From NCBI GenBank assembly GCA_947625885.1, contig CANQQA010000003.1, forward strand, positions 128,726-192,725: 64,000 nucleotides of DNA, read 5' to 3'. The notes beneath the pieces are model-generated. The model worked only from the letters and a program-made list of their open reading frames with translations. It did not search any database and was not told the origin of the DNA. Below are positions 28,407 through 31,966 of this stretch, one piece after another; the stretch's first letter is position 1; the number at the start of each line of letters is the position of its first letter. The position numbers and the translations under genes were made by a program. The stretch comes from an uncultured Bacteroidales bacterium (GTDB lineage Bacteria; Bacteroidota; Bacteroidia; Bacteroidales; UBA11471).

Positions 28407-28428
28407 GGGGGGGGGAAAAATTTTTTTT
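28407..28428. repeat. Consecutive homopolymer tracts G9-A5-T8
   Basis: Nine Gs, five As and eight Ts lie back to back, ending inside the TGA stop of the HmuR-like gene on the minus strand. Such a tract is prone to slippage, but it lies almost wholly outside coding sequence. Confidence 0.9.
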
Positions 28429-30329
28429 CAAAAAAATCGGTCGATGTCGAGCGACACGCCGGCGTAGAATGTGGTGCCGGTGGTGGCAGGCGAGTTGTAG
28501 TAATAGTACGACGGTACGTAGTTGAAGAGATTATCGACGGCGAGTGTTACCCGTATTCCTTTCCGGATATCTTGCGAGAGCGTCAGTTTCCAAAGCGTGT
28601 AGGCAGGGTATTTTCGCCGCACGGTTTGGGTATATGAGGTGAGCGAAGTATATTCGTCGGCTTCGACGGCGGAGAGCCAGCGTCCGTTCAGTATGAGGTC
28701 GAACGAATAGTTTTTCCACTTTTTCCCGTACTCTGCGCGCAGGGTCGCCGTGTGGGGGCGGGTGGGCGAAATCATCGGCTCGCCGGCTTTGGCGTGTTCG
28801 TGCGTGTAGGCGTAGGAGAGGCGGGCGCCGACCCCGCAGTTCAGTTTCATCGACACGTACATTTCCACACCCGATATTCTGAGGGCGGAGGTATTGACGT
28901 AGCGCATTCCGTTCAGGCTGTTGTCCCATGCCGTCGAAATGCGGTTGTCCACGAGGTTGCAAAATCCCGTAATCGCCACGTTCCAGCCGCTTCGCAGGTA
29001 TTCGGCGGAGAGCGAGAAGTTGTGGCTCGATTCGGCTTTCAGGTCGGGGTTGCCGTAAATCATGAACAGGTTTGCCATATCGAAGTTCATGAACATTTCT
29101 TTGAGCGTGGGGGCGCGGAATCCGCCTGCGTAAGAGCCGCGCAGGGAGCAGTTGCCCGTTTTATACATGATGCCCGCTTTCGACGACAGGTGGTGAAGGT
29201 GCGCCTCCGACAGCCAGTCGTACCGCACGCCGGCAATCACGTTGATTTTCTTGATAGGATTCCAGTCGAATTGGGCGAAGATGTCGGCGGTGTATTGGCT
29301 CTTGCTTCCGTTCTCGGCAAACTGGTAGCTCAACAGATAGTCGCGCATGAAATCGCCGCCCGTCGTCAGCGTATATTTTTTGTCGATGTGGAAATTGTAA
29401 AGGGCGCGCAGCGTGTGCTGCACGTTGCTGTAATCGCGTATGTCTTTTTCGGTGAACAGGTTGTAGTCGCTCTTGTCGTATTGGTCGAAAGTGTATGCCA
29501 GCTCGGCATCGTGTCTGCCGAAAACATAGTTGCCCTTTATCCCTCCGCTGAAATCGCGGTATCGCTCTTTGGCGATGGCTTGTGCGTCGCGCTCGCGGAA
29601 GAAGTATCCCGCCCGTGCCGTGAATTTCAGATGTTCGTTCGCCGTGTAGATCAACCGCTCTTTGAAATCCCATGTCCGGTTTCCGTAGATGCGGCTGTAA
29701 TCGCCGTCGGCAGGCAGGTCGTAGGAGTCGATGTCGGTATATTGCACATTCGTGCGGCTATATACTTTTCCGGCGTTGAAACTCACTGCTCCGCCGTAGC
29801 GCTGCTCGTTGTGCGAACCGTAGCGCGCGTTGGCTTCGACGTTCCATTTCTCTTTATCCGTGCGGGTGATAATGTTCACCACTCCGCCTACGGCGTTCGA
29901 GCCGTAGAGGGCGGAGGCTGCCCCTTTCACGATTTCGATGCGTTCCACGTCGTTGAGATTCAGCCGGCTGTAATCGACGTTGTCTAACGTTTCGCCCGCT
30001 ATCCGTTCGCCGTCGATGAGAAAGAGCACCGAGCCGCCGTCGAATCCCGACATATTGAGTGCCGTTTGCTGGTTCATCGAAAACGAAAATTCGATGCCCG
30101 GCAGTTCCGATTGCAGCAGTTCGCCCACGTGCGAAGCGTCGCTTTTGCGTATGTCGTCGCGCGTGATGATGCGGGTTACGAGCGGAGCGTCTTTCAGCAA
30201 TTTCGGGGTGCGTGTCGCCGTTACCACCACCTGCTCCATGTCGATGTCTTTCATCGGCGACTGCGCCATGGCGGGGGTGACAAGAAGCAGCCCTGCCGAC
30301 AAACCGAGTATGCCGCGAAAAACGTTCAT
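28428..30329 (-). CDS. hmuR: TonB-dependent haem receptor, HmuR-like
   Basis: A 633-residue outer-membrane transporter. A signal peptide (MNVFRGILGLSAGLLLVTPAMA) is followed by a TonB-box-like segment MEQVVVTATRTPK. The plug (IEIVKGAASALYGSNAVGGVVNIITR) and a 22-strand barrel ending in an aromatic residue (DIDRFF) complete it. The length and the adjacent HmuY gene match Porphyromonas HmuR, which takes haem from HmuY. Many other receptors share this architecture, so the haem assignment rests mainly on the neighbour. Its start lies one base after the HmuY stop. The stop sits in a homopolymer tract. Confidence 0.85.
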   Translation of the reverse strand: MNVFRGILGLSAGLLLVTPAMAQSPMKDIDMEQVVVTATRTPKLLKDAPLVTRIITRDDIRKSDASHVGELLQSELPGIEFSFSMNQQTALNMSGFDGGSVLFLIDGERIAGETLDNVDYSRLNLNDVERIEIVKGAASALYGSNAVGGVVNIITRTDKEKWNVEANARYGSHNEQRYGGAVSFNAGKVYSRTNVQYTDIDSYDLPADGDYSRIYGNRTWDFKERLIYTANEHLKFTARAGYFFRERDAQAIAKERYRDFSGGIKGNYVFGRHDAELAYTFDQYDKSDYNLFTEKDIRDYSNVQHTLRALYNFHIDKKYTLTTGGDFMRDYLLSYQFAENGSKSQYTADIFAQFDWNPIKKINVIAGVRYDWLSEAHLHHLSSKAGIMYKTGNCSLRGSYAGGFRAPTLKEMFMNFDMANLFMIYGNPDLKAESSHNFSLSAEYLRSGWNVAITGFCNLVDNRISTAWDNSLNGMRYVNTSALRISGVEMYVSMKLNCGVGARLSYAYTHEHAKAGEPMISPTRPHTATLRAEYGKKWKNYSFDLILNGRWLSAVEADEYTSLTSYTQTVRRKYPAYTLWKLTLSQDIRKGIRVTLAVDNLFNYVPSYYYYNSPATTGTTFYAGVSLDIDRFF

Positions 30330-30984: not shown

Positions 30985-31473
30985 TTATTTCTCCGTGTCG
31001 GGAGCCGCGCCTTCGATGAAGGTAATGGTCGTACCGCCCATGACGGTCGGGCAGGTGAATATCAGTCGTCGGGGCGCTCCTTTTTCTATGGTGCCGGTGA
31101 GCGTGGCGTCGTATGAAACAGGTTCACGGTCGCCCATCGCCATATAAGCCTTTCCGTTTCCGTCGATTTGGAATTTGCCATCAACGACCGATACGGTGGC
31201 ACCGTCGATGTCAAGGTCAAGTGTATAGCCCATTATTACAGACGTGAACGATACATCGAATTTGTTGCCCTCTACTGCGGTTATCGTTACGGTTTCGTTT
31301 TCCGTCAGCAACGGTTCGGGAATAGGGGCAGCGGCAAATGTGGAATATCCCTGATACTTTCCGGAGATAATATCTTCGACGGGGTCTATAATGAGTTCGT
31401 TTTCTTTTTCATCGTTGTCGCAGCTTGCCAGACAGAAAACGGCGAGCAGCAAAGTCAAGGCGGATAGTTTCAT
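30985..31473 (-). CDS. Calycin-like domain lipoprotein
   Basis: A 162-residue lipoprotein with lipobox VFCLASC (Cys18) and a beta-rich body (GKYQGYSTFAAAPIP, ETVTITAVEGNKFDVSFT, MGGTTITFIEGA) that fits the calycin-like family of Bacteroidota. Its TAA is immediately followed by the ATG of HmuY. It is the first gene of the haem operon and may be an additional ligand-binding or accessory surface protein, which is inference from context. Confidence 0.75.
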   Translation of the reverse strand: MKLSALTLLLAVFCLASCDNDEKENELIIDPVEDIISGKYQGYSTFAAAPIPEPLLTENETVTITAVEGNKFDVSFTSVIMGYTLDLDIDGATVSVVDGKFQIDGNGKAYMAMGDREPVSYDATLTGTIEKGAPRRLIFTCPTVMGGTTITFIEGAAPDTEK

Positions 31474-31514
31474 TTTTTAGATTTTATAGGGTTGGAAATT
31501 TTTTGTTTCGGGGG

Positions 31515-31522
31515 CAAAGATA
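31515..31522 (-). promoter_or_regulatory. Promoter -7 element of the calycin-hmuY-hmuR operon
   Basis: The minus strand reads TATCTTTG, 41 bases before the ATG at 31473. No clear Fur-type palindrome was seen around it by eye. Confidence 0.55.
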
Positions 31523-31560
31523 AGACGAATCTTGAAAATTTTTAATACCTAAATCGAAGT

Positions 31561-31647
31561 AAAAAAGCGGCATCGCCTACCTATAATGCGGTACGGTTTA
31601 GGTGTTGTCTGCCGCCGTATCGTCCCGAACGGCACTCCCGTTCGGAA
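31561..31647 (-). ncRNA. Candidate small structured RNA of about 87 nucleotides
   Basis: A minus-strand unit with a textbook promoter (31651-31681), a 5' hairpin directly at the expected start, and an intrinsic terminator. The 5' hairpin is CCGAACGG/CCGTTCGG with a five-base loop (31625-31645). A second domain has outer stem GCGGCA/TGCCGC (31567-31572 with 31610-31615) and a nested ACCTA/TAGGT stem (31579-31583 with 31599-31603), followed by six Us. No plausible short coding frame uses the region. It could regulate the neighbouring toxin-antitoxin or haem genes, or act elsewhere. I do not recognise a known RNA family. An alternative is that it is the 3' end of the upstream operon with a fortuitous promoter. 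Confidence 0.6.
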
Positions 31648-31650
31648 GTG

Positions 31651-31681
31651 CAAAGATAGAAAAGATTTGCGGAATCGCAAA
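31651..31681 (-). promoter_or_regulatory. Perfect promoter driving the candidate small RNA
   Basis: On the minus strand TTTG (31678-31681) and TATCTTTG (31651-31658) are exactly 19 bases apart, the Bacteroidota consensus. It lies after the antitoxin stop and points away from that gene. Confidence 0.75.
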
Positions 31682-31699
31682 AACAACTTTGAATGGCAA

Positions 31700-31966
31700 T
31701 TAATTCACGGAAATAATTGGCTGCCCGAAAAAAGCGGAGAGTTTGCCGAGTGTAGAAAGCGTAAAATTGTGCTGACCGCTGAGCCATTTGGTTATTTCGC
31801 ACGGACGCTTGCCTAACGCATCGGCAAATTGTTTCTTCGAGAGCCCTTTCTCCTGCATCAGCGTTTCGATACGATTGGAAATCTCAAATGATAAATTTAT
31901 TTCAGCCTTAATATTTTCCGGTACGCTTGCTACTAAGGATTTATATCTATCTCTTGCATCTTTCAT
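31700..31966 (-). CDS. XRE-type helix-turn-helix antitoxin-like protein
   Basis: An 88-residue protein whose C-terminal half is a canonical HTH: IETLMQEKGLSKKQFADALGKRPCEITKWLSGQ (split here as IETLMQEKGLSK and KQFADALGKRPCEITKWL), residues about 33-68. Its ATG overlaps the stop of the upstream 156-residue gene by four bases, the arrangement of HigBA-type toxin-antitoxin pairs in which the toxin comes first. It would bind DNA, repress the pair and neutralise the toxin. The region is AT-richer than its surroundings, suggesting acquisition. Confidence 0.75.
   Translation of the reverse strand: MKDARDRYKSLVASVPENIKAEINLSFEISNRIETLMQEKGLSKKQFADALGKRPCEITKWLSGQHNFTLSTLGKLSAFFGQPIISVN

Follow-up and report, generated by a model that had tools for sequence, protein, structure and literature searches.

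A gene-free interval between a toxin–antitoxin-like gene pair and a haem uptake operon carries the elements of a small transcription unit, consisting of a promoter (P1), a 5' hairpin and an intrinsic terminator. It lies in the 64,000-nt stretch of DNA analyzed here (the window), from an uncultured gut Bacteroidales bacterium, and recurs in two relatives of the same genus (G004 and G005). We lean, slightly, toward the view that the unit encodes a lineage-restricted, independently transcribed intergenic small RNA (sRNA) of the ordinary Bacteroidota kind. P1 would be a housekeeping-type Bacteroidota promoter, driving an RNA of ∼85 nt whose 5' end carries a hairpin. The RNA would end at the intrinsic terminator, with a gap of 38 bases to the –7 box of P2, the operon's own promoter, and would most likely act in trans via base pairing. 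The features are as follows, in window coordinates.

31651..31681, minus strand: P1 promoter, TTTG-N19-TATCTTTG; 31683-31648 unchanged at all 36 positions across the three genomes
31666..31681, no strand: perfect palindrome TTTGCG-ATTC-CGCAAA over the P1 –33 box; candidate operator or weak terminator
31561..31647, minus strand: predicted short RNA, ∼85–87 nt; one genomic copy; varies at 4 of 87 positions
31625..31645, minus strand: 5' hairpin, 8 bp, CCGAACGG-GAGTG-CCGTTCGG; A.G mismatch in both relatives (31629 T to G)
31561..31615, minus strand: terminator made of a GCGGCA/TGCCGC stem and T6; in G005, 31612 G to A disrupts the long stem
31592..31619, minus strand: alternative helix, UACGG (31619-31615)/CCGUA (31596-31592); 10 of 10 bases invariant in three genomes
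31515..31552, minus strand: P2, haem operon promoter, with TTAGGTATT (31552-31544) and TATCTTTG (31522-31515); only copy in the genome
30985..31473, minus strand: calycin-like lipoprotein, whose gene opens the haem operon; PF13944 with E 4e-4, short of the gathering score
30331..30984, minus strand: HmuY; PF14064, E 1.2e-29
28428..30329, minus strand: TonB-dependent receptor, HmuR-like; best NCBIfam match TIGR01785, below its cut-off

Promoter, predicted RNA and terminator

P1 is an exact sigma-ABfr-type promoter, TTTG CGATTCCGCAAATCTTTTC (N19) TATCTTTG, at 31681-31651 on the minus strand, just as an earlier reading of the sequence (the sequence-only reading) had described it. The window contains 5 matches to TTTG-N17-21-TAnnTTTG, versus 0.69 in shuffles. 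Two tandem exact matches of the same promoter type lie upstream of ppdK (35430-35374, minus strand). The interval that P1 faces is indeed free of genes, and the predicted RNA has an intrinsic terminator at its 3' end; both features are criteria for intergenic sRNAs in Bacteroidota (PMC7366714). A regulon defined by the P1 palindrome was considered and rejected, since the palindrome occurs once, with no second copy in a search of the whole genome.

The 5' hairpin is present at 31645-31625, as claimed. Alone it means little, because perfect hairpins of 8 bp are not unusual in the window (29, versus 4–17 in five Markov shuffles). At the 3' end, the sequence-only reading saw a two-layer stem followed by six Us. 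The outer layer (GCGGCA, 31615-31610; TGCCGC, 31572-31567) and the T6 run (31566-31561) are in place. But the inner layer that this stem would enclose, ACCTA/TAGGT, appears in the centroid and is absent from the minimum-energy fold. All three genomes also share a compact hairpin of 5 bp, AGGCG-ATGC-CGCTT (31578-31565), that extends into the T run; in G005, where the long stem is broken, this hairpin and the T run are all that remains of the terminator.

The window's 87-nt RNA has a fold of –32.5 kcal/mol (z –2.87 versus dinucleotide shuffles), whereas the relatives' RNAs, with z of –0.65 and –0.69, fold no better than shuffles. Of the proposed anatomy of a stable small RNA, the layout of independent start and terminator stands, and the excess in folding is confined to the window's sequence. 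In a nested fold, formation of the UACGG/CCGUA helix excludes the terminator stem; the helix is invariant, though among three close sequences only. With its terminator stem broken, G005 has a minimum-energy fold built from this helix and the compact hairpin at the T run. The family was unfamiliar to the sequence-only reading, and Rfam 15 likewise gave no match, either at the gathering score or, within 31400-31800, at E up to 10. Within the RNA gene, the reverse complement of 31605-31596 reads TTTAGGTGTT, which agrees with the P2 element TTTAGGTATT at 9 of 10 positions; a direct TAGGT is found close by, at 31583-31579.

Distribution and variation among relatives

The promoter–RNA unit is single-copy in its own genome. 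Among six congeners examined, good DNA matches were found only in G004 and G005, at 96–97% identity. The remaining four lack both the RNA sequence and HmuY, and in the two of these with a readable stretch (G003 and G006) a different lipoprotein gene follows ppdK. A search of relatives with a covariance model had been proposed as a check. The model, built from the window, G004 and G005 and searched in 295 Bacteroidales genomes, yielded homologues in these two relatives but no credible one beyond the three known loci. A weak 36-base match (E 0.012) was rejected, as it lies inside an open frame of another genome. Gene order in G004 and G005 is ppdK, ppdK terminator, P1, RNA, P2, lipoprotein, HmuY and TonB receptor, and in all three genomes the unit sits directly upstream of the lipoprotein–HmuY–TonB operon on the same strand. 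Two uncultured Bacteroidales MAGs from a separate collection, with samples named 'Lapin' (French for rabbit), show the same operon, identities and contig positions.

Across the three genomes, variable sites number 0/36 in P1, 4/87 in the RNA, 2/45 in the spacer between terminator and P2, 4/41 in the operon 5' UTR and 36/654 in HmuY. In four flanking genes, 86/670 fourfold-degenerate sites (12.8%) are variable. P1 and the RNA together (4/123) fall below this rate, with a binomial P of about 0.0002, and the RNA alone gives P of about 0.01, assuming independent sites and neutral fourfold sites. This low variability is not necessarily RNA-specific, because the terminator–P2 spacer is about as conserved.

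The four changes in the RNA have different consequences. In both relatives, 31629 T to G breaks a pair of the 5' hairpin, and 31623 A to G touches the hairpin base and lengthens the alternative helix. In G005, 31612 G to A breaks a pair of the terminator stem. The fourth change, 31601 C to T, retains an inner pair as G-U. Compensatory changes in the stems, which the sequence-only reading had offered as a supporting sign, did not appear among these four sites in three sequences, and two of the four break pairs. The RNA structure is conserved in part only; divergence among three sequences is too small to exclude a structured RNA.

The same comparison separates the unit from the neighboring gene pair, beside which the sequence-only reading had placed it. 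In PADLOC, the pair (32433-31963 and 31966-31700, minus strand) matches PDC-M64B/C, a candidate defence system (E 7e-48 and 2e-25), and its 156-aa protein has no Pfam match. Copies of a 10-bp direct repeat, TTTTTGCGAT, flank it at 32551-32542 and 31683-31674. G004 and G005 have an empty site with a single TTTTTGCGAT copy, followed by P1, the RNA and the haem operon. None of the six congeners has the pair. One repeat copy in the relatives implies that the pair was either inserted at this site or lost via the repeat; the conserved P1 block starts exactly at the insertion boundary. Because both relatives carry the RNA without the pair, the RNA is not part of it, and, given the PDC-M64 match and flanking repeats, their proximity is accidental. 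The unit is therefore distinct from the pair, a defence-like cassette of recent gain or loss. In the window, a weak palindrome is the sole terminator candidate between the antitoxin stop (31700) and P1, so the pair mRNA may end at the RNA terminator. Even so, the idea that the RNA serves the pair, as regulator or shared terminator, is very improbable and, from the comparison of loci, largely refuted.

The haem operon promoter and target pairing

The unit had been placed 39 bases upstream of the haem operon promoter. The position is right, and the measured gap between the terminator and the P2 –7 box, TATCTTTG, is 38 bases. In P2, TTAGGTATT begins 30 bases before TATCTTTG. At L080, a locus that shares this gene order but belongs to another family, TTAGGTATT begins 30 bases before TAACTTTG, and the P1 unit is absent. 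The unit is also absent upstream of haem operons from other families, in the upstream regions that were read. Since P2 and TTAGGTATT are conserved in another family without the unit, the operon can do without P1.

In 14 hmu upstream regions, the TAGGTAT motif was counted 9 times, versus 0.45 in shuffles, and no other 7-mer with two or more G/C is shared as widely there. Its enrichment upstream of HmuY/TonB-receptor operons spans Bacteroidales families (window 31552-31544, L078, L080, L077, L082 and L084). TAGGTAT is a candidate operator of some haem or iron regulator. P2 is probably the real operon promoter, with TAGGTAT as a regulator site; if so, the P1 transcript would be separate from, or only auxiliary to, the operon mRNA.

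Adjacency to the haem operon, another element of the sequence-only reading, holds in each of the three genomes with the unit, yet P2 is conserved elsewhere without the RNA, and pairing of the RNA with the first mRNA region was not significant. In a first small test, pairing with the lipoprotein start region seemed favorable (0.005 of shuffles). Despite this, the lipoprotein was rejected as a target, as it ranked only 21 among the 49 start regions of the window. HmuY and the receptor ranked 4th and 7th, but these ranks, among G+C-rich starts, are not convincing.

Rival readings and known systems

The main rival to an independent sRNA is a premature-termination leader of the haem operon. P1 would then be a second, distal operon promoter, and the choice between UACGG/CCGUA and the terminator would set read-through, much as in an attenuator or riboswitch. 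The constant same-strand position directly upstream of the operon fits this idea, as does the helix itself, which is invariant, longer in both relatives and part of the minimum-energy fold in G005. A terminator just upstream of a TonB-receptor operon, together with an alternative helix, also recalls the attenuators and riboswitch leaders of bacterial transport operons. Unlike those, however, the locus has a good, conserved second promoter past the terminator, matches no Rfam aptamer or leader family and comes without a known aptamer or leader peptide; moreover, the unit is absent from the upstream regions that were read for haem operons of other families. We consider a leader rather unlikely, though a serious contender.

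It is also possible, if unlikely, that the locus has no RNA function. A chance promoter and an insulating terminator might lie in regulator-binding DNA, given the P1 palindrome, the TAGGTAT-type elements at P2 and the similar words within the RNA gene. The inner terminator layer might then represent operator copies rather than RNA structure. The poor folding in two of three genomes, the pair-breaking changes and the enrichment of TAGGTAT upstream of hmu operons are consistent with this. But an exact P1 without a single change, combined with a well-placed T6 terminator, exceeds what an operator needs.

A more specific proposal is that the RNA tunes the lipoprotein–HmuY–HmuR operon, through a UACGG/CCGUA–terminator switch or contact with the P2 operator. 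Pairing between ACCUAAA (31603-31597) and TTTAGGT in P2 would be possible, reminiscent of the SnoA locus of B. thetaiotaomicron, where an RNA locus lies near an operon that SnoA is proposed to influence (preprint PMC13370916). Unlike the SnoA case, the 7-base match here is near chance and is weaker in both relatives (ACTTAAA). We regard such tuning as improbable; regulation of haem uptake by the candidate RNA is hypothetical.

An independent sRNA agrees with what is known of B. thetaiotaomicron, for which 49 high-confidence intergenic sRNAs with start site and terminator were described, 27 of them strain-specific (PMC7366714), and a later atlas lists 135 intergenic sRNAs (PMC10994844). Like these RNAs (e.g. 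GibS and MasB/BTnc201), the candidate is a short unit with a sigma-ABfr-type promoter and an intrinsic terminator, and many of them are also narrowly conserved (PMC7366714; PMC10994844). They differ in having RNA-seq and, for some, northern and target evidence, whereas the candidate is known only from its DNA. If transcribed, it would add another sRNA of narrow distribution to those of the Bacteroidota, new but ordinary. A role in haem uptake would matter more, as such regulation is poorly understood in gut Bacteroidales. In either case, the comparison highlights a conserved TAGGTAT element at haem operon promoters. Porphyromonas gingivalis, a haem-requiring member of the Bacteroidales, also has a small transcript, PG_RS02100 (PMC6231650).
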